Shown here in pieces: positions 3,976 through 61,494 of a DNA stretch of 64,000 bases. This DNA is from Nitrospirota bacterium. Its GTDB lineage: Bacteria; Nitrospirota; Thermodesulfovibrionia; Thermodesulfovibrionales; Dissulfurispiraceae. The position numbers were made by a program, and so were the translations under genes. The stretch lies in assembly GCA_009773415.1 (NCBI GenBank), contig WSNO01000007.1, forward strand, positions 1 through 64,000, given 5' to 3'. Under the pieces are notes generated by a model that was not told the origin of the DNA, did no database searches, and saw only the letters and a list, made by a program, of their open reading frames with translations. Within the stretch, counting starts at the first letter, position 1; every line of letters begins with the position of its first letter.

Positions 3976-4821
3976 TTAATCACATCCGATCAGCTCTGCC
4001 GCCTGCTTGTTAAGGTCCATCGCGATTTGTTCACTCACGTGCAGCCGCTCCGATATTTCCCGGGGGTCTATAGATGCGAGGTCCTGCACCAGAATGATGT
4101 CATTGGCTATGCACGCGTCAAGCGCACGGCGCTCGGAAAACTGCAGCACCGTCACCGGATAGAGCTTTTTATCTTCAATCATCCGCTCGAGGCTCTGCAT
4201 TTCAGGGTACCGCCAGCTCACTATTCTGAGGCCGGAGCATTCAGCAAAAGCGATCGCATCGTGTGAACACCGCGTATTAGTGACAAGCCATCCCTGACGG
4301 AAGAGCCCGTTTTTTTCAGGGGCAAGATCATATGCCTTCTTGATGTCCTGAAACCTGGCATGCACATACATTGCAACCTTCACGTCGGTTTTTTTCCCGG
4401 GATTGTTGTGATACTTGCATTCAATCATGTGCTTGCCGGTGCTGTCTGCCGCGATAATATCAACCTCATGGTTAATGCAAAACCCTTTGACAATATGGTT
4501 GGTTGAGGACTTGTAGCCGTAAGACTGGAGAATCTTCGCAAAGAATCTCTCAAACGGAAACCCTGACGGACCGAGTAAATAGATAGCGCGTTTAAGAGAA
4601 TAGCGCATGCCCGAAGCTCTGTTGAATTTACGCAGCAGCCGCTTTGCGAGCCTGAATATCTGCCTGGTATGAGCGCTGCTTGGCATCTGACGGTAAACCT
4701 CTTCGGCAATCTCGGCCGCAACATCCTGCGGAGCTCCGACACGCATAAGAGAATTGATGAGCTTGGCCTGCTGGAATTCTTCATGTTCACCGGAAGCTTT
4801 CGTTATCGACTTCGTATTCAT
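3976..4821 (-). CDS. ATP-cone domain plus PD-(D/E)XK nuclease-like protein
   Basis: The 281-residue protein joins two domains. Residues about 5-95 read as an ATP-cone: an initial K-x-SG-x-x-E-x-F, a helical middle, and YSLKRAIYLLGPSGFPFE. Residues about 105-200 carry a restriction-endonuclease-like core, with an Asp in HEVDIIA and the E-x-K of HMIECKYHN. The tail has a helix-hairpin-helix-like look. ATP-cones normally sense adenine nucleotides in ribonucleotide reductases and NrdR. Fusions to Mrr-like nucleases exist in genomes, but their role is unclear. The start codon lies only 6 bases after a good -10 box, with no Shine-Dalgarno. No methylase is adjacent. Confidence 0.75.
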   Translation of the reverse strand: MNTKSITKASGEHEEFQQAKLINSLMRVGAPQDVAAEIAEEVYRQMPSSAHTRQIFRLAKRLLRKFNRASGMRYSLKRAIYLLGPSGFPFERFFAKILQSYGYKSSTNHIVKGFCINHEVDIIAADSTGKHMIECKYHNNPGKKTDVKVAMYVHARFQDIKKAYDLAPEKNGLFRQGWLVTNTRCSHDAIAFAECSGLRIVSWRYPEMQSLERMIEDKKLYPVTVLQFSERRALDACIANDIILVQDLASIDPREISERLHVSEQIAMDLNKQAAELIGCD

Positions 4822-4827
4822 AGGGCA

Positions 4828-4856
4828 ATTTTACACGAAATCCGGAGCATTGGCAA
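4828..4856 (-). promoter_or_regulatory. Promoter predicting a leaderless mRNA for the ATP-cone nuclease
   Basis: On the minus strand TTGCCA (4856-4851), a 17-base spacer and TAAAAT (4833-4828) are followed by 6 bases and then the ATG at 4821. No Shine-Dalgarno is present. Transcription would start at or next to the start codon. Confidence 0.6.
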
Positions 4857-4898
4857 AACAGGGTCAGGCCATGACATGCAAATCGGCATACAACGCAA

Positions 4899-4924
4899 GA
4901 AAGCCCCGATTGTTCGGGGCTTTC
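4899..4924 (-). terminator. Rho-independent terminator of tRNA-Val
   Basis: An 11-bp perfect stem (GAAAGCCCCGA / TCGGGGCTTTC) with a 4-base loop lies 12 bases past the tRNA 3' end. Its T-rich 3' arm runs into TTGCG, so the U tract is short. Confidence 0.75.
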
Positions 4925-4936
4925 AGGTAAATCATA

Positions 4937-5011
<75 letters not shown>

Positions 5012-5025
5012 TCCAGAGGAATTTA

Positions 5026-5055
5026 ATTAAAGCGCAAAGGCGGAAACTTTGTCAA
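5026..5055 (-). promoter_or_regulatory. Promoter of tRNA-Val
   Basis: On the minus strand TTGACA (5055-5050), an 18-base spacer and TTTAAT (5031-5026) lie 15 bases before the tRNA. It is back to back with the transglycosylase promoter. Confidence 0.65.
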
Positions 5056-5073
5056 GCAAAGAACCATAAGTTC

Positions 5074-5103
5074 TTGAATCTCGGGTCCTTTGCATGATAA
5101 GAT
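5074..5103 (+). promoter_or_regulatory. Promoter predicting a leaderless lytic transglycosylase mRNA
   Basis: TTGAAT (5074-5079), an 18-base spacer and TAAGAT (5098-5103, preceded by TGA as in an extended -10) are followed by 8 bases and ATG at 5112. The upstream in-frame ATG at 5094 lies inside the promoter, which argues against it as the start. Confidence 0.55.
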
Positions 5104-5111
5104 TGAACCAA

Positions 5112-5903
5112 ATGAAAATAGTGCTTTTCATAAGCATTCTTTTGAGCATCTTTGCGTTCACTGCCGGCGGTGCGTCGGCGGATGTTTATCGCTCTGTTGC
5201 GCCGGATGGTTCTGTGGTCTATACAAACACTCCGTTTAAGAATACCGATCGAGTTATGTATAGAGAGAACAAGAAGTTTATACAGCCGGAACCTGAAAAA
5301 AATTCTGCTGATAAGAAGCCTGCTCAACCCTCGGGAAAAACAACGGAAAGCACAGAGCCGAAAGCCGCCACACAGAAGGATTCACTGAAGCGTGAATCGG
5401 TTTCCACCAGAAAAAATGCATACGCGAACATTGTTGAGGAAAAGGCAAAGAAACACGATGTCGATCCGAAGCTTGTAAAGTCCGTCATTCGGGCCGAGTC
5501 GAACTGGAACTCAAGTGCCGTATCTCCCAAGGGTGCAATGGGGTTGATGCAGTTGATGCCGCAAACGGCGCATCTTATGGGTGTCGGCAATGCATTCGAC
5601 CCTGAGGAGAATATCGAGGGCGGCGTGAAATATCTCCGGTATCTCCTCGGCAGATTCAACGGGAATCTCACGCTTGCTCTTGCCGCGTATAATGCCGGGC
5701 CCAAGGCTGTCGAGCGCAAAGGCGGCGTTCCAGGAATACCCGAAACAGTCAATTATGTGCAGAAAATTATGGGTGATTATACCGGCGTTGCTCCGCTTGC
5801 CTACATTCCGCTATCGTCTCAGACCCGCATTCACAAGGTGGCGCTGGAAGATGGCACCATTCTGTATACGAATTTGACATCCCGCAGATCCGGTTCTTAT
5901 TGA
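5112..5903 (+). CDS. Exported lytic murein transglycosylase (SLT family) with DUF4124
   Basis: This 263-residue protein cleaves peptidoglycan glycan strands in the periplasm. A signal peptide (KIVLFISILLSIFAFTAGG, ending near ASA-DV) is followed by a DUF4124-like module (DVYRSVAPDGSVVYTN), a charged low-complexity linker and an SLT domain from about residue 105. The catalytic Glu is in IRAESNWN. The family motifs GAMGLMQLMPQTA and ALAAYNAGPKAV are intact. The C-terminus repeats a short TILYTN element like that in the first module. The start at 5112 is chosen from the promoter position and the signal peptide. Confidence 0.9.
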   Translation: MKIVLFISILLSIFAFTAGGASADVYRSVAPDGSVVYTNTPFKNTDRVMYRENKKFIQPEPEKNSADKKPAQPSGKTTESTEPKAATQKDSLKRESVSTRKNAYANIVEEKAKKHDVDPKLVKSVIRAESNWNSSAVSPKGAMGLMQLMPQTAHLMGVGNAFDPEENIEGGVKYLRYLLGRFNGNLTLALAAYNAGPKAVERKGGVPGIPETVNYVQKIMGDYTGVAPLAYIPLSSQTRIHKVALEDGTILYTNLTSRRSGSY

Positions 5904-17230: not shown

Positions 17231-17249
17231 TGCCGCCCGTCCGTCTTTC

Positions 17250-17340
17250 CCGTTCCCTACGCCAGTATTACCTGAATCAGGTTCGCGGGGTCTTTCCCGA
17301 TACCGGGAAACTCTCAGGCCGTAACCTCCCCCAGGGACGT
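17250..17340 (-). promoter_or_regulatory. TPP riboswitch (THI element)
   Basis: Read on the minus strand, the element contains the conserved CTGAGA box, ACCCCGCGAACCTGAT, and the block ACTGGCGTAGGGAA, which together identify the thiamine pyrophosphate aptamer. It stands upstream of thiS-thiE-thiC. The hairpin at 17193-17230 follows directly. Bound TPP is expected to shut off the operon. Confidence 0.93.
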
Positions 17341-17344
17341 ACTA

Positions 17345-38452: not shown

Positions 38453-38480
38453 TTGACACGGACGTGATAATGGTTATACT
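38453..38480 (+). promoter_or_regulatory. Promoter predicting a leaderless hemerythrin mRNA
   Basis: TTGACA (38453-38458), a 16-base spacer and TATACT (38475-38480) are followed by 7 bases and then the ATG at 38488. No Shine-Dalgarno is present. Confidence 0.7.
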
Positions 38481-38487
38481 AAAACTA

Positions 38488-38919
38488 ATGCTTACGTGGA
38501 CGAATGACCTCTCTGTCGGTGTTGTGGAGATTGACGAACAGCATCAGGAGCTGTTCCGGAGAATCAACCGACTGCTCGGAGCGCTTGATGACAGGGCCGC
38601 TGCGGTGGAAGTTCGCACGTTGTTTGCATTTTTGGAATCCTATGTTGTTTGTCACTTCGACACTGAATCGAAATATATGGATGATTATGCCTTGTACGGC
38701 TATGCAGATGCTGAGCACCACAAGTCGGAACACCGGGCATTTGTTCGGGATTTCCAGGAGTTCAGAACGGATCTTGAGTCTGCGGAGCCGGACCATCTTT
38801 TTATTGCCGAGTTCAGCAAGTGGATGAACAACTGGTGGCTCATTCATATTCAGAAGGTCGATCAGGGGCTGGGGGTATTTCTCCGTGGAGCCTTTCCGAT
38901 ACTCGGACGCATGAAATGA
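38488..38919 (+). CDS. Bacteriohemerythrin
   Basis: The 143-residue protein binds O2 at a di-iron centre. The ligand set is recognisable: the first His in IDEQHQELF, a His and Glu in CHFDTESKYM, His residues in AEHHKSEHRAF, and the late His-Asp in LIHIQKVDQGLG. It lacks other domains and so is a soluble oxygen carrier, buffer or sensor. The ATG at 38488 matches the usual start before the WTNDLSVGV segment. A decayed second copy of its C-terminus lies just downstream. It is divergent from the gnd operon. Confidence 0.92.
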   Translation: MLTWTNDLSVGVVEIDEQHQELFRRINRLLGALDDRAAAVEVRTLFAFLESYVVCHFDTESKYMDDYALYGYADAEHHKSEHRAFVRDFQEFRTDLESAEPDHLFIAEFSKWMNNWWLIHIQKVDQGLGVFLRGAFPILGRMK

Positions 38920-38985
38920 AAGCGCGGGCTGATGAGCAATCAATTCCCCGCATTTTTTGTTTCATCCAGCCTCAAGTTCTGCTTT

Positions 38986-39051
38986 GTTAAATATCATATC
39001 GAAAAAGCAGATAAAGGCATCGGCGCATTTCTGAAATCAGCCAAAAAATGA
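38986..39051 (+). pseudogene. Hemerythrin C-terminal remnant
   Basis: One frame reads HIEKADKGIGAFLKSAKK then TGA. This aligns with HIQKVDQGLGVFLRGA at the end of the intact hemerythrin 130 bases upstream, and looks closer to the general family consensus. Upstream similarity disappears. It is the tail of a deleted tandem paralogue. Confidence 0.7.
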
Positions 39052-39062
39052 GATAAAATAGA

Positions 39063-39090
39063 GGGCGTCCAATTCGGACGCCCTTTTGTT
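39063..39090 (+). terminator. Terminator after hemerythrin, probably bidirectional
   Basis: GGGCGTCC and GGACGCCC form an 8-bp perfect stem with a 5-base loop followed by TTTTGTT. On the minus strand it is followed by TCTATTTT and may also end the cytochrome transcript. Confidence 0.85.
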
Positions 39091-39128
39091 CAGCATGTTA
39101 ACCTGATGTTAATGAGTTCAGCTTGTTG

Positions 39129-39419
39129 TCAGCAGCCCTCCGCGGCCTTTTTCTTCTTTGCCGGAGCCTTGAGCTCAGCAGCTGATGCTTTGATATCCTC
39201 ATCGGTCAGGTTTTTGTGAAGACCTGCCTTGCTGCCGCCGCGAACCGCTTTCAACATTCCCTCGCCGTCCTTAATGTTTCCCTTGGCCGCAATCTTGTCG
39301 ACCGCCTTCTCTGCCTTGTGGCATTTTACACATTTGTCATCAATGACGCCGGCCTGAGCACTCAGCCCGAATGCGCATACAGTGAAAAGAGCTACGACCG
39401 AAACCAGTACTTTCTTCAT
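39129..39419 (-). CDS. Periplasmic monoheme cytochrome c
   Basis: The 96-residue protein has a signal peptide (KKVLVSVVALFTVCAFGLSAQA) and one heme-binding CVKCH near residue 30. The remaining sequence is lysine-rich with a few helices and a C-terminal GC. The axial sixth ligand is not obvious. Small cytochromes of this kind serve as periplasmic electron carriers. The ATG at 39419 follows GGGAGGCACCT. The open frame extends upstream only by chance. Confidence 0.88.
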   Translation of the reverse strand: MKKVLVSVVALFTVCAFGLSAQAGVIDDKCVKCHKAEKAVDKIAAKGNIKDGEGMLKAVRGGSKAGLHKNLTDEDIKASAAELKAPAKKKKAAEGC

Positions 39420-39595
39420 AGGTGCCTCCCTGTGTTTTTTGAAATTCTGAATATAATATGTCAAATAGTATGCCAGTTCATTTGCAGCAAAAAAAGACAC
39501 GAAATCAATATGAAATTCAGATTGAAGAATAAGCGGGTTCCCATTATGAGGATAAAGTTTCCGAAAAAAGGAGGTCTTTACGAAGACAGAATATC

Positions 39596-39604
39596 TGCTA
39601 TACT
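39596..39604 (+). promoter_or_regulatory. Extended -10 predicting a leaderless pseudokinase mRNA
   Basis: TGCTATACT is an extended -10 ending 5 bases before the ATG at 39610. A weak CTTTAC lies 17 bases further up. An AAAGGAGG stretch at about 39567-39574 lies over 30 bases from the ATG, too far to act as ribosome site for it. Confidence 0.55.
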
Positions 39605-39609
39605 GTAAC

Positions 39610-41115
39610 ATGCAAAAAAGTAACATATCGACTTTGGCAACTCTTTTTCTGACGGCAGCGGCTCTGCTTGGGTACCATGAGGCCGGTTCCCTGCTGCAGC
39701 CTTTTGAGAAAATATTTGGCATAAACAGTCTGCACAATGGTGGCGTTCGCTCGGAATGGGCTTTTTTTGCTGAATTAGGTGCCATCGTCTTTACAGGCTT
39801 TTTCCTCGCATTTTTTCTGCCGCTTCTGAAACCTCGAACTAGCCTGCTGATGGTACTCCTGCTGGCCTGCGCCTTGGGCAGCGCCGCCTTATCATCCCAA
39901 TATGAGATGAGAGGGTTGAGGTTTGGATATGCGATTCTGCTCCTTTTTGCAGGTTATTATGTTTCCGTGCTTTTGTCGAAGCGACAGGAGGCTGAACCCC
40001 GAGCGGCAATTGAGCAGGCAGACAGTTCGCGGGAGGCGGACAAACCTGACATTCACGAGGCTGCGCCGCACATTCAGCCCCTGCCGGATGCTCCGGCTTC
40101 TAATATTTCGTCGCCGGCTACCGATGCAACGCTAGCAGAATCAACAGAATCTATTGTTTCAGTTGCAGGAGAATTAAGCACGGCTGTTGAAGATGTCGAA
40201 ACAGCAGTACCGCACGTCGAGATCGCATCCGTTGGGCAGAATACTTCCGGGGGGATTGCATTGGAGCCAGTTGCAGATGCAGACCTGCCTCCTGAAGCTG
40301 CGGCAGTGCTGCAATTGGGCTCATTTGCGCTGATGCCTAATCCTGTTTCAGGTCCTTTCGGACTCGTTTATCAGGGGAAAAATGCTCATGGACAGATTGC
40401 AAAGATTTACACCATCCCCCTTGCTCAGATTCCTCCCCATGAACAGGATGCGTTCAGAAAGCGGATGACGATGTATGCCGATATGCTCGGCAGACTTTCG
40501 CATAGCCGAATCGCAAGGGTTCTTGAGAGCGGAGAATCAGCCGACATAGCCTATGTTGCATATGAGGAGATTAAGGGCACGCCGCTTTCTGAATACTGCA
40601 ACAAGGGTTCTCTCATGTCCTTTCAGGATGCGTTGGCGCTTATTGCAAAGATTGCTGAGGCGGTTGATTTGGCGCATAAAAACGGCCTCATTCACCGGGC
40701 GATCCGTCCTGAAACTATTCTTCTTTCTCATGACGGCGAGGTCTTGATGACGGAATTCGGGCTTGCAGCGATTGTAAACAGCGGGGGAGACGGACTGCCG
40801 CTGGAAATCATTCCGTATACCGCGCCTGAAGTTGTTTTCGGCAGGAAAGCCGATGGGCGCGCCGATCTCTTCTCTCTTGGAGCGGTTTTCTTTGAGTTGC
40901 TCACGGGCGAGCGGCTCATTGCAGGGGATATCCGTGCAGACCTTTTCTACCAGATAACAACGAAGCCATATCGTCAAATCAGCGAAATTCGTCCCGACCT
41001 GCCGGAATTCTGCGACATATTGCTGGACCGCATGGTGGCGAAATTGCGAGAGCAGCGGTATCAACTGAGCGTAGATCTTTCAGACGACATTGCAATGCTG
41101 CTCTATAATTTGTGA
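39610..41115 (+). CDS. Membrane protein with C-terminal Ser/Thr pseudokinase domain
   Basis: The 501-residue protein has about four membrane helices in the first 125 residues, a linker rich in Ala, Glu and Pro (about 130-225) and a kinase-fold domain (about 235-500). The Gly-rich loop (SGPFGLVYQG) and an AIK-type Lys (IAKIYTI) remain, as do APE (YTAPEVV) and DLFSLGAV. The catalytic loop reads HRAIRPET instead of HRDxKPxN, and DFG reads EFG, so the base Asp and the metal ligands are lost. It is a predicted pseudokinase. A PP2C phosphatase gene follows after 7 bases. Confidence 0.85.
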   Translation: MQKSNISTLATLFLTAAALLGYHEAGSLLQPFEKIFGINSLHNGGVRSEWAFFAELGAIVFTGFFLAFFLPLLKPRTSLLMVLLLACALGSAALSSQYEMRGLRFGYAILLLFAGYYVSVLLSKRQEAEPRAAIEQADSSREADKPDIHEAAPHIQPLPDAPASNISSPATDATLAESTESIVSVAGELSTAVEDVETAVPHVEIASVGQNTSGGIALEPVADADLPPEAAAVLQLGSFALMPNPVSGPFGLVYQGKNAHGQIAKIYTIPLAQIPPHEQDAFRKRMTMYADMLGRLSHSRIARVLESGESADIAYVAYEEIKGTPLSEYCNKGSLMSFQDALALIAKIAEAVDLAHKNGLIHRAIRPETILLSHDGEVLMTEFGLAAIVNSGGDGLPLEIIPYTAPEVVFGRKADGRADLFSLGAVFFELLTGERLIAGDIRADLFYQITTKPYRQISEIRPDLPEFCDILLDRMVAKLREQRYQLSVDLSDDIAMLLYNL

Positions 41116-41122
41116 GAAGTGC

Positions 41123-41881
41123 GTGAGCATTCGGCGTTCCTGTGGTATCAGTGACATTGGAAGCGTTCGGAGCAGAAATGAAGATGCATTCTGTGTTGCC
41201 GGCGACATTGGTTTTTATGGCGTTGCAGATGGCGTCGGCGGCTCTCCAGGAGGCGACGTTGCGAGCCGGATTGCGGTAGATGTCGCTGAAGCATTTCTGC
41301 GTGATGCATTTGCCGGCATGCTGCACATGCCCGGACTTTTTCGTGAAGATACATCTGCACTCAACCGTCTCATGTGCTCGGCAGTACAAAAGGCGAATAC
41401 GGCAGTTTATCATCAGAGCATCAGGGTTCCTGCCCTGTCGGGCATGTGCACGACGTTTGCTGCTGCTCTTTTCAGGGAAGATCAACTTGCTATCGTTCAT
41501 GTCGGCGACAGTCGAATCTATCGGCTTCGTAACGGTGTTCTTGACCAGCTGACCGAAGATCATACGCTTGCTCAGGAGCAGTTCCGTCGCGGCCTTATAA
41601 GCCATTCAAAACTGCTGGAGTGTGACTACCGGAATATTATTTCCCGGGTTATCGGGATTGAACCGAACGTCGAATCCGTGTTTGCTGAATATACAGTGCA
41701 GGAGAGCGATCGCTATCTGCTCTGTACGGATGGGCTTTCCAATATGCTTGGTCATGAAGTTATCCGTGAAATTCTTTCTGCAGAGGGACTGCCGGAATCA
41801 GCATGCTCATCGCTTGTCGCTGGGGCAATTCAGTCCGGCGGGTTTGATAATATTACGGTTATCGCTGTCTTCTGTAGATAA
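41123..41881 (+). CDS. PP2C-family Ser/Thr protein phosphatase
   Basis: The 252-residue metal-dependent phosphatase has all family motifs: GSVRSRNEDAF, GVADGVGGSPGG, VHVGDSRIYRL, LLCTDGLSN and GFDNITVI. The metal-binding aspartates are intact. I chose the GTG at 41123, 7 bases after the pseudokinase stop. An ATG at 41090 lies inside that gene. It is soluble and probably reverses phosphorylation of a partner, or is controlled by the neighbouring pseudokinase. No active kinase is nearby. Confidence 0.92.
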   Translation: MSIRRSCGISDIGSVRSRNEDAFCVAGDIGFYGVADGVGGSPGGDVASRIAVDVAEAFLRDAFAGMLHMPGLFREDTSALNRLMCSAVQKANTAVYHQSIRVPALSGMCTTFAAALFREDQLAIVHVGDSRIYRLRNGVLDQLTEDHTLAQEQFRRGLISHSKLLECDYRNIISRVIGIEPNVESVFAEYTVQESDRYLLCTDGLSNMLGHEVIREILSAEGLPESACSSLVAGAIQSGGFDNITVIAVFCR

Positions 41882-41931
41882 TAACTAATTGGTTCTGAAG
41901 CTTTTTTGTTTTTCCTGCCCAACCAGGTTCG

Positions 41932-41961
41932 TTGAGTTTTTGTGTCCGCTACAGGTACACT
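41932..41961 (+). promoter_or_regulatory. Promoter predicting a leaderless scpA mRNA
   Basis: TTGAGT (41932-41937), an 18-base spacer and TACACT (41956-41961) are followed by 8 bases and ATG at 41970. No Shine-Dalgarno is visible. Confidence 0.5.
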
Positions 41962-41969
41962 GATACGCT

Positions 41970-42767
41970 ATGGTTGAAGCAAACGAACATCAGCACCAAT
42001 CTGCTTACAGCATCAAGATATCCGCCTTTGAAGGGCCATTCGATCTACTGCTTCACCTGCTGAAGCAGAACAAGATTGATATTTATGATATTCCGATTGC
42101 CGAGATTACCAAACAATACCTTTATTACCTTGAGATCATGAAAGAACTAAATCTCGAAATTGCGTCCGAATTCCTGGTCATGGCCGCCACGCTTATTTAC
42201 ATCAAGTCGCGCATGCTGTTGCCCCCTCCCGAAGAGCCCGCCGACGGAGAAGAACTGGAAGACCCCAGAGCCGGACTTGTGCAGCGTCTTCTGGAGTATC
42301 AGGCATTCAAGGAAATGTCCGGAGAATTTCGGCAGCGTGAAGACATATGGTCCAATTCCTTTCCCAGACCGCCGATTGTGGATGAGAAGGTTGCGGCCGA
42401 ACCTGTGCCGTTGCTGTTCGACGTCAATCTGTTCGATCTCATGGGAGCGCTCAGGAGAATTATTGACCGGGTGCCGCCCGAGACGATGATTATCAGCCGC
42501 GAAACGCTTACGGTGCAGGATAAAATTAATCTTATTATTGACCGGCTCGATGCCGAGCAGACCATCCGCTTTGCCGATCTGTTTGCAGAAGACCGCAGCC
42601 GTCTTCATGTTATTGTGACGTTTCTCGCGCTGCTCGAAATCCTGCGGCTCGGTCTCGTGCGTGCCTATCAGGAAAATGATTTCAGCGCTATTTTCATCAT
42701 GCGTGGAGATCGGGATGCAGGCATTGCAGCCGGTGCCGAGGAACAGGAGCCGTCTGTTCGGGACTGA
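41970..42767 (+). CDS. scpA: Segregation and condensation protein A
   Basis: ScpA is the kleisin that bridges SMC heads in bacterial condensin. The 265 residues show the N-terminal FEGPFDLLLHLLKQNKIDIYDIPIAEIT, EFLVMAATLIYIKSRMLLP and the C-terminal winged-helix segment (VTFLALLEILRLGLVRAYQ) that binds SMC. scpB, usually next door, is not in the window; argS follows instead after 75 bases. Confidence 0.95.
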   Translation: MVEANEHQHQSAYSIKISAFEGPFDLLLHLLKQNKIDIYDIPIAEITKQYLYYLEIMKELNLEIASEFLVMAATLIYIKSRMLLPPPEEPADGEELEDPRAGLVQRLLEYQAFKEMSGEFRQREDIWSNSFPRPPIVDEKVAAEPVPLLFDVNLFDLMGALRRIIDRVPPETMIISRETLTVQDKINLIIDRLDAEQTIRFADLFAEDRSRLHVIVTFLALLEILRLGLVRAYQENDFSAIFIMRGDRDAGIAAGAEEQEPSVRD

Positions 42768-42804
42768 TTTCCGCTCAGAAAGCCATTTCATGCCTGTTTC
42801 AGCG

Positions 42805-42834
42805 TTGACAACTCGCCAAGCTCCCGCATAAACT
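42805..42834 (+). promoter_or_regulatory. Promoter predicting a leaderless argS mRNA
   Basis: TTGACA (42805-42810), an 18-base spacer and TAAACT (42829-42834) are followed by 8 bases and the ATG at 42843. No Shine-Dalgarno is visible, although argS is a strongly expressed housekeeping gene. Confidence 0.65.
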
Positions 42835-42842
42835 ATTCAGCT

Positions 42843-44495
42843 ATGGAAAGACAACTGAGAGCTGTTCTTCAGGATGCCTGCACCTCACTCAATGCGAATG
42901 TGCAGGTCGATGTGATTGATATCCAGGTGCCGAAAGAAGAGTTCGGTGATCTCTCAACGCCGCTTGCCATGGGCCTCGCCAAACCGCTCAGAAAATCACC
43001 GCGATCGATTGCCGAGCAGATTGTACAGGCGGTTTCAGCTTCACCTCTCTTTGAAAAGGTCGAGATTGCCGGTCCCGGTTTTATCAACTTCACCTTCTCG
43101 AAGCGCTTTCTCGTTGAGGAGTTGCTGCGCCTGATTGACAAGCCGGATACTGTTCTTCGCGAAGATATCGGCGGCGGAAAGCGTATCCAGATCGAGTTTG
43201 TAAGCGCAAACCCCACCGGCCCGCTTCATCTCGGCCACGGGCGCGGAGCTGCTCTCGGGGCTGCATTGTCAAACATTCTGCAGGACGCAGGCTACAGCGT
43301 CGAAAAAGAGTTCTATATTAACGATGCGGGCCGTCAGGTGAGAATGCTCGGTCATTCGGTCTATGCAAAGTATCAGGAGTTGCTCGGAAGGACTGTTCCT
43401 TTTCCGGAGGATGGATATCGCGGAGACTACATCACCGGAATTGCTCGGGCGTTGATGGCGGAGCAGAGTGATGCGTATGTTGGAAAAACTTTTGATGACG
43501 TTGCCGGGTTCTTTGTCGACTTTGCCTATCTCCGCATGCTCGATGCCATCAATCAGGATCTGACAGATTTCGGGGTACTGTTCGACTCCTGGCAGAGCGA
43601 GCGTCGGTTATACGTAGACAACCTCGTTGAGCAGGGAATTGATGATCTGCGGCAGCGCGGGCATATCTATGAGCAGGACGGGGCGCTCTGGTTTCGTTCT
43701 ACCGACTTTGGAGATGACAAAGATCGTGTTTTGGTGAAGCAGGATGGCGCATATACCTATTTCACGCCGGATATTGCGTACCATAGGAAGAAATTTGAAA
43801 AAGGGTTTGACGAGATTATCGACATATGGGGCGCCGACCATCACGGATACATTCCTCGCATGTCTGCTGCCGTTCAGGCGCTCGGGCACTCAAAGGAAAG
43901 CTTCCGAGTGCTGCTTGTGCAGCTGGTTTCCTTGCTGAAGGGGGGGCAGCCGGTGCAGATGTCGAAGCGAGCCGGTGAGTTTATCACGCTTCGCGAAATA
44001 ATGGACGAAATAGGAGCGGATACAACCAAATTTCTTTTTCTCACGAGGCGTTCAGACACTCCTCTGGAGATAGACATCGAGATCGCCAAGGCGCAGTCCA
44101 ATGAGAATCCTGTTTTCTATGTGCAATATGCCTATGCTCGCATCAACAGCATTTTTGAGAAGGCACGCGAAGCCGGAGTTTTTACCGGTGAGTCTCCGGC
44201 AATTCCGGACAGTATTGATTTCTCCCTCTATAACGAAGATGAATATTGCCTTATCAGGAAGTTGCTTCTCTATCCCATGATGTTTCGTGGCGCTGCATTG
44301 GCTCGGGAACCGCATCGCATCACATTTTATCTGCAGGAACTCGCCGGGATGTTTCACCCGTATTATCACAAATATCGTGTCATTACCGATGATGCTCCAA
44401 TGACGACCGCGCGACTGCTGCTCTGTCAGGCAATGAAGGTTGTACTGCGCCGCGGTCTGAAGATGCTTGGCGTACAGGCTCCAGAGAGGATGTAG
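42843..44495 (+). CDS. argS: Arginyl-tRNA synthetase
   Basis: The 550-residue class I synthetase has the N-terminal tRNA-recognition domain (about 1-110), the HIGH-type signature HLGHGRGAALG near residue 130, the MSKRAGEFITL version of KMSKS, and a C-terminal DALR anticodon-binding domain beginning near residue 430. The start codon is firmly placed because the N-terminal helix aligns directly after MERQLRAVL. Confidence 0.96.
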   Translation: MERQLRAVLQDACTSLNANVQVDVIDIQVPKEEFGDLSTPLAMGLAKPLRKSPRSIAEQIVQAVSASPLFEKVEIAGPGFINFTFSKRFLVEELLRLIDKPDTVLREDIGGGKRIQIEFVSANPTGPLHLGHGRGAALGAALSNILQDAGYSVEKEFYINDAGRQVRMLGHSVYAKYQELLGRTVPFPEDGYRGDYITGIARALMAEQSDAYVGKTFDDVAGFFVDFAYLRMLDAINQDLTDFGVLFDSWQSERRLYVDNLVEQGIDDLRQRGHIYEQDGALWFRSTDFGDDKDRVLVKQDGAYTYFTPDIAYHRKKFEKGFDEIIDIWGADHHGYIPRMSAAVQALGHSKESFRVLLVQLVSLLKGGQPVQMSKRAGEFITLREIMDEIGADTTKFLFLTRRSDTPLEIDIEIAKAQSNENPVFYVQYAYARINSIFEKAREAGVFTGESPAIPDSIDFSLYNEDEYCLIRKLLLYPMMFRGAALAREPHRITFYLQELAGMFHPYYHKYRVITDDAPMTTARLLLCQAMKVVLRRGLKMLGVQAPERM

Positions 44496-48108: not shown

Positions 48109-48174
48109 TAGTAATTGTACGCTATTTTTCAACCGAAAAGCGAAAATGCGCTACAATAGACGTGAGGAGGGCGC

Positions 48175-49107
48175 ATGGAGCTCAAAAACAAGACAATTGA
48201 TGAAATACTATCCTTTCTTTCCCCGTATCTGCATGGTAAATCCAATGCCCTGAAACTTGCACTTGTCGCTTTTTTTTCGCGCGGGCACTTGCTTGTTGAG
48301 GATTTACCGGGCCTCGGCAAAACAACCATAGCGATTGCAATTGCGAAAGCGCTCGGCATGAACTTCGGACGAATTCAATGCACAAGCGATCTGCTGCCGA
48401 GCGACATTACCGGGCTCTCGATGTACAACAAAAATACGAGTGCGTTTGAGTTTCATCCCGGCCCGGTTTTCAATAATATCGTACTCGTGGATGAAATCAA
48501 CCGTGCTACACCGAAAACCCAGAGTGCTCTTCTTGAGGCCATGGCGGAGAAGCAGACGACCATAGAGGGAAAGACCTACAAATTGGCGCGGCCTTTTTTC
48601 GTCATAGCGACGCAGAATCCGGTGGAACAGTTTGGTACCTTTCCCCTTCCGGAGTCACAACTTGACCGTTTCATGATGAAAATAAGTGTCGGCTACCCTG
48701 ACCGGAATGCTGTGATGGCGATCCTGAAGTCGGGAAGCCGCCGGGATGACTTGTATGACATCGTTCCGATGATGAAGAAAGAGGAAGTGATTGCCACTCA
48801 GGAAGATATTCGTACGGGCGTCACGATTTCAGACAAGGTGCTCGACTATATTCTGGACATAGTCGAGACAACGCGCTCCAGCAAATATATCCTCGCGGGA
48901 ATATCGACGCGCGGTGTTCTTGCTGTCCAGGCGACTGCCAGGACGCTCGCGTATTTCAGCGGTCGCGATTATGTCATCCCGGAAGATGTGAAGCTGCTTG
49001 CCCAGTACACGCTGCCGCACCGCCTTATTTACCGCGAAGAATACGGCAGTGTGGACAAGAAGGAGATTATCAAATCGCTCGTCGATCAGATACGCCTTCC
49101 GGTGTAA
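48175..49107 (+). CDS. MoxR-family AAA+ ATPase
   Basis: The 310-residue ATPase has a Walker A site in GLGKTTIAIA (about residue 45), Walker B in VLVDEINRATPKTQSALLEAM, sensor-1 ATQNPVEQFGTFPLPESQLDRF, and the small C-terminal lid. MoxR proteins act as chaperones that mature partner complexes, usually encoded with DUF58 and transglutaminase-like proteins, as here. GAGGAGGGCGC precedes the ATG. Its stop overlaps or abuts the next gene. Confidence 0.93.
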   Translation: MELKNKTIDEILSFLSPYLHGKSNALKLALVAFFSRGHLLVEDLPGLGKTTIAIAIAKALGMNFGRIQCTSDLLPSDITGLSMYNKNTSAFEFHPGPVFNNIVLVDEINRATPKTQSALLEAMAEKQTTIEGKTYKLARPFFVIATQNPVEQFGTFPLPESQLDRFMMKISVGYPDRNAVMAILKSGSRRDDLYDIVPMMKKEEVIATQEDIRTGVTISDKVLDYILDIVETTRSSKYILAGISTRGVLAVQATARTLAYFSGRDYVIPEDVKLLAQYTLPHRLIYREEYGSVDKKEIIKSLVDQIRLPV

Positions 49108-60321: not shown

Positions 60322-60358
60322 TTGACATTTCAAATCAGCTATGTCATATTTATGACAT
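60322..60358 (+). promoter_or_regulatory. Promoter and overlapping palindromic operator of the sigma-54 activator gene
   Basis: TTGACA (60322-60327), a 17-base spacer and CATATT (60345-60350) lie 6 bases before the ATG at 60357. An 18-base inverted repeat, ATGTCATA-TT-TATGACAT (60341-60358), covers the -10 and the first two bases of the start codon. A bound dimer would block transcription. No Shine-Dalgarno is present, so the mRNA is probably leaderless. Confidence 0.65.
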
Positions 60359-61386: not shown

Positions 61387-61494
61387 ATGAGCCAGAAGTA
61401 GGCGCTTAAAGCGAACCGCGCCATGCATACAATATGTACGATGCCAGATCGTTTGCTGGCAATAATAATTGATGTTTTGTGCTATACGATATGT

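Follow-up and report, generated by a model that had tools for sequence, protein, structure and literature searches.

A survey of 953 bacterial genomes recognized leaderless TA-led genes in 207 of them; shares were highest in Actinobacteria and Deinococcus-Thermus, and the groups named there do not include Nitrospirota (Zheng et al., 2011; PMC3160421). These TA-led genes have a TA-like -10 element about 10 bp before the start codon, carry no Shine-Dalgarno (SD) site and stand alongside SD-led genes, as do the genes described here, which also resemble the TATAAT-like form reported in the same study for mid-GC genomes. According to the passages of PMC9581028 dealing with GeneMarkS-2, leaderless transcription is predicted from promoter-like upstream signals in 21.6% of bacterial species. 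In Deinococcus-Thermus, a promoter with its -10 element a few bp before the open reading frame, comparable to the present arrangement, has been established experimentally as a source of leaderless mRNA and is strengthened by a -35 element (PMC12340547). In Caulobacter crescentus, 9.6% of the CDSs are leaderless, with transcripts starting on the A of ATG and being translated as well as leadered ones (PMC4117421). Regarding SD use, a survey gives a value of 45 (by its context a percentage) for class Thermodesulfovibrionia (PMC10783764), close to the SD share found here. The original prediction for the DNA stretch studied here had already referred to leaderless mRNAs in Actinobacteria and Deinococcus, to which Caulobacter can be added, and had pointed to the lack of a detailed description in this kind of bacterium. 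Likewise, no description of leaderless initiation in Nitrospirota was found in the open literature searched, and the arrangement, known in other phyla, is apparently undescribed for this class.

Promoters adjacent to start codons in the window

The window analyzed comprises bases 1–64,000 of one contig from a genome of 2.46 Mb. At seven of its genes, among them those for ArgS, ScpA, a bacteriohemerythrin, an SLT transglycosylase, a kinase-like protein and a sigma-54 activator, a promoter lies with its -10 element only 5–8 nt upstream of the start codon (Table 1), and the best SD match is 0 in each case. All hexamers, spacers and gaps quoted in the original prediction could be confirmed. The log-odds scores of the seven promoters, obtained with a model partly trained on these genes and thus slightly biased in their favor, were reached by 0–4 out of 1,000 dinucleotide shuffles of the respective upstream sequence. 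The RlmI-like gene and tnpA, which had been flagged beforehand as weaker cases, are indeed weak, as their scores were attained by 31 and 95 out of 1,000 shuffles, respectively. In the protein read from position 38488, the hemerythrin domain PF01814 begins at residue 11.

Table 1. Promoters and other features of the 64,000-nt window; log-odds according to the genome's own promoter model
Feature	Position	Strand	Start codon	Elements and remarks	Log-odds
ATP-cone nuclease promoter	4828..4856	-	4821	TTGCCA-17-TAAAAT, ATG 6 nt on	6.5
SLT transglycosylase promoter	5074..5103	+	5112	TTGAAT-18-TAAGAT, ATG 8 nt on; SLT domain PF01464	6.3
TPP riboswitch	17237-17342	-		Rfam RF00059, 60.6 bits	
Bacteriohemerythrin promoter	38453..38480	+	38488	TTGACA-16-TATACT, ATG 7 nt on	3.8
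Kinase-like gene (pseudokinase), extended -10	39596..39604	+	39610	TGCTATACT, ATG 5 nt on; without good -35; PF00069	4.0
scpA promoter	41932..41961	+	41970	TTGAGT-18-TACACT, ATG 8 nt on	5.2
argS promoter	42805..42834	+	42843	TTGACA-18-TAAACT, ATG 8 nt on	3.6
RlmI-like gene, weak case	48114..48119	-	48108	TACAAT 5 nt from start	1.8
Sigma-54 activator promoter	60322..60350	+	60357	TTGACA-17-CATATT, ATG 6 nt on	4.0
Palindrome at sigma-54 activator	60342..60357	+		sole match in window, 0.12 expected	
tnpA, weak case	61483..61488	+	61495	TATACG 6 nt from start	1.7

Several further observations concern the surroundings of these genes. The two leaderless-type genes at 4821–5112 point away from each other and flank a tRNA-Val gene (4937–5011, minus strand). 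The RlmI-like gene on the minus strand forms a divergent pair with a plus-strand gene starting at 48175, the promoters facing each other; the latter gene has a TACAAT further upstream and the SD sequence GAGGAGG. The kinase-like gene (39610–41115) is directly followed by a PP2C-like gene (41090–41881). Kinases usually show the motif HRDxKPE in the catalytic loop; the kinase-like protein has HRAIRPE at this position and, because of this replacement, is probably catalytically dead.

Genome-wide occurrence of near-start -10 elements

As had been proposed together with the original prediction, -10 motifs close to start codons were counted beyond the window, in 1.32 Mb (54%) of the genome read base by base. 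Genes were called by our own simple coding-potential model, which uses no upstream signal and placed the starts of the hemerythrin and pseudokinase genes wrongly. Among 896 genes with ATG start, 38% have an SD match of at least 5 and 49% have none. In the genes without SD, TANNNT is present 4–10 nt from the start in 107 cases, whereas its frequency further upstream predicts 33.7 (P = 8e-24); the gap distribution has its peak at 6 nt. Of 341 SD genes, 3 have such a TANNNT. The enrichment is strong and restricted to genes without SD, and did not vanish at the genome scale. With the same pipeline, no TANNNT excess was obtained for E. coli K-12 (300 kb) and Bacillota loci. In an open comparison at gaps of 4–9 nt, TANNNT ranked at the top of 640 three-base patterns and TATAAT, with one mismatch allowed, at the top of 4,073 hexamers. 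This exhaustive ranking was employed instead of a two-motif expectation maximization (EM) run without a promoter starting point, which recovered the SD motif and otherwise a diffuse remainder.

An EM promoter model starting from the general sigma-70 consensus, with flat priors on gap and spacer, learned a gap mode of 6 nt, a spacer of 17–18 nt (92%) and an extended TG. The conserved hexamer positions are T1, A2, and T6; the class consensus is close to TGgTATAAT and usually accompanied by a -35 element. At a log-odds above 3, promoters were assigned to 14.9% of the genes without SD, 0.85% of the shuffles, 0.5% of the SD genes and 0.4% of internal ATGs, the model being trained on the same genome and all controls being scored with it. 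Even when gaps of 0–30 nt were permitted, 66% of the promoters were located at 4–10 nt, versus 21% in shuffles. The EM attributes 21.8% of the genes without SD (11% of all) to the class; when the gap is left out of the score and a strict threshold of 5 is applied, 13% of the genes without SD (about 7% of all) remain. Hence, we estimate that 6–11% of the genes, about one in ten to fifteen, are leaderless or nearly so. EM on small samples from other genomes and loci overfits and was left out of the fraction estimates.

Class genes are mostly first in their transcription unit, and 49% diverge from the upstream neighbor versus 15–18% of the remaining genes, as expected of genes having their own promoter. 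Judged by their protein domains, the best twenty candidates outside the window include genes for DNA polymerase III alpha (dnaE), the transcription-repair coupling factor Mfd, SMC, a class A penicillin-binding protein, a sigma-70-family factor (regions 2, 3, and 4), CofH/MqnC, a histidine kinase and a diguanylate cyclase. In line with what had been proposed for the window, SD-led and leaderless-type genes thus coexist in this genome, and the latter comprise housekeeping functions (argS and scpA, and matches to dnaE, smc and mfd elsewhere). The emphasis initially put on a cluster at 38453–42845 could not be maintained, since the promoter class is spread over the whole genome and this region is nothing special; a functional clustering was rejected.

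Conservation of promoter placement among relatives

The closest named relatives of the window's ArgS are from Nitrospirota, several being labeled Thermodesulfovibrionales, and the organism is therefore presumed to belong in or close to this order. Upstream regions of argS from the window and 23 Nitrospirota loci were compared by reading the printed sequences. TAAACT is located exactly 8 nt before ATG in 16 of these 24 loci, i.e., in 15 beyond the window, mostly with a TTGACA-like -35 at 17–18 nt, and a seventeenth locus (L002) has TAAACG in the same position. The promoter-to-start spacing of argS is fixed to the base. A search of 295 genomes with the pattern TAAACTTA-N6-ATG-RAA gave matches in 29 members of the class and in a single genome from the rest of the phylum; its reversed control matched in three. 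Most of the pattern matches, for which the argS identity is putative, run on as ATGGAAAAA or ATGAAAAAA, like argS. A comparison of class membership among orthologues was significant (18 out of 30 versus 3 out of 48), albeit carrying little weight beyond argS, because this gene dominates the set and the pairs are not independent.

For the sigma-54 activator, 13 genomes show a TTGA-type -35 followed by CATATT (CAAACT in L176), the gap to the start being 6 nt in 12 genomes and 8 nt in one; in three of the 13, the start codon is GTG in the same place. The exact sequence TGTCATATTTATGACRTG occurs in 13 of 40 relatives at one copy per genome. The palindrome at this gene (Table 1) looks like an operator and is perhaps autoregulatory. 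In the case of scpA, an own promoter at a gap of 7–8 nt is present in the window and in L065, L079, L081, and L093, with TAAACT at 7–8 nt in the former three relatives and TATAAT at 7 nt in L093. In L067, L068, L070, and L077, the start of scpA overlaps the stop codon of its upstream neighbor and the gene is therefore operonic; the initiation mode thus follows gene arrangement. For the nuclease gene, TANAAT was found in four genomes at gaps of 6, 7, 8, and 6 nt, the relatives being L224, L225, and L226; homologue searches with the nuclease and the pseudokinase gave few orthologues.

Genomes outside the order were compared by pattern counts. In 78 whole genomes, exact TATAAT was counted at a gap of 5–7 nt before ATG and, in the same codon phase, at 14–16 nt. 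The near and far counts amount to 75 versus 42 in the genome studied here (P = 0.0015) and 966 versus 710 in sister genomes of its family. The ratio is 1.3–1.7 in families f2, f4, f7, f8, f9, f10, f13, and f14, 1.43 in f18 and 1.14 in f22, whereas no near-start excess was found in f3 (711/731; genomes G025, G037, and G096), f16 (625/657) and f21 (641/639). In the wider phylum, the signals per family are modest (ratios mostly 1.3–1.8). Since relatives of f3, f16, and f21 do show the excess, the class has possibly been lost in these three families. With a signal in most of the order and its absence from these families, the lineage offers a clean comparative case.

Predicted mRNA starts and relation to known systems

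In the usual sigma-70 geometry, a gap of 6 nt places +1 on the A of ATG. In the 40 class genes with gaps of 7–11 nt, the base 7 nt past the -10 is a purine in only 9 (P = 0.001), and a pyrimidine immediately precedes the start codon in 32. Rare purines at the fixed-distance site together with a pyrimidine before ATG thus favor a start on the ATG itself. From promoter position we infer leaderless mRNAs: very probably, the promoters are placed such that the mRNA begins at the start codon, without leader or SD. The transcripts would then be recognized, presumably, by ribosomes binding the 5'-terminal AUG with initiator tRNA. About 6–11% of the genes, mostly the first of a unit and often divergent, would be expressed in this way, and the remaining ones would rely on SD sites, coupling or unclassified starts.

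Where the gap is 8–10 nt, as at argS with 8 nt, leaders of 2–4 nt could result. It is unlikely, however, that transcription begins 3–15 nt upstream and that ribosomes bind a very short leader devoid of SD, considering the gap mode of 6 nt, the scarcity of purines at the fixed-distance position and the pyrimidines before ATG, of which two are present in all argS homologues having this promoter; a start upstream of the -10 itself would be incompatible with this promoter driving the gene. It is also highly improbable that the AT-rich hexamer serves translation instead of being a promoter, as an unstructured or S1-binding signal of leadered mRNAs without SD. An upstream AT bias of non-SD genes is known from several phyla and may partly reflect S1 sites (PMC5397173), but the hexamer found here comes with a -35 at 17–18 nt and an extended TG, is conserved at T1, A2, and T6, and precedes unit-first, often divergent genes. 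Start errors at leaderless genes do occur in Deinococcus annotations (PMC12340547). In the present genome, however, in-frame ATG or GTG codons with SD within 30 codons downstream are found in 3 out of 77 class genes versus 28 out of 371 SD genes; as such starts are no more common in the class, and as conservation of both ArgS and the activator protein begins right at the proposed N-terminus, miscalled codons with true SD-led starts downstream are scarcely credible.

At the sigma-54 activator, the conserved palindrome TGTCATATTTATGACA reaches across the -10 element to the A of ATG, and its function as an operator might by itself have preserved the spacing. This is very unlikely to account for the arrangement, as it concerns one gene only, with argS and the genome-wide class having the same geometry without a palindrome, and operator and leaderless start are mutually compatible. 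Chance hexamers selected by eye can practically be dismissed: TANNNT is a common pattern and the RlmI-like and tnpA cases are near chance level, but the genome-wide enrichment and the low values for shuffles, internal ATGs and SD genes have already refuted this explanation for the class as a whole.

A wider evolutionary reading seems plausible, though it falls somewhat short of being probable. In the class around Thermodesulfovibrionales, leaderless initiation might be ancient and inherited vertically, with the leaderless argS promoter and its exact 8 nt between -10 and ATG being retained since before the families split. In at least one regulator gene, the operator would cover both the -10 and the start codon, one DNA site controlling transcription and also determining where a leaderless mRNA begins. 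With the genes described here, a largely uncultured, phylum-level lineage would join those with substantial, conserved leaderless initiation for essential genes. Genome annotation is affected as well, as such starts are prone to being misplaced by start callers geared to SD sites.

Compared to the described systems, the class is smaller than in Deinococcus-Thermus, where about a third of the genes is leaderless versus 6–11% here, and the consensus differs, being TANNNT there and near TGgTATAAT, usually with a -35, here. The leaderless mRNAs of Caulobacter, a member of another phylum, have been mapped experimentally, whereas those proposed here are predicted from sequence. The most unusual aspect of the present system is the conservation of spacing to the single base.
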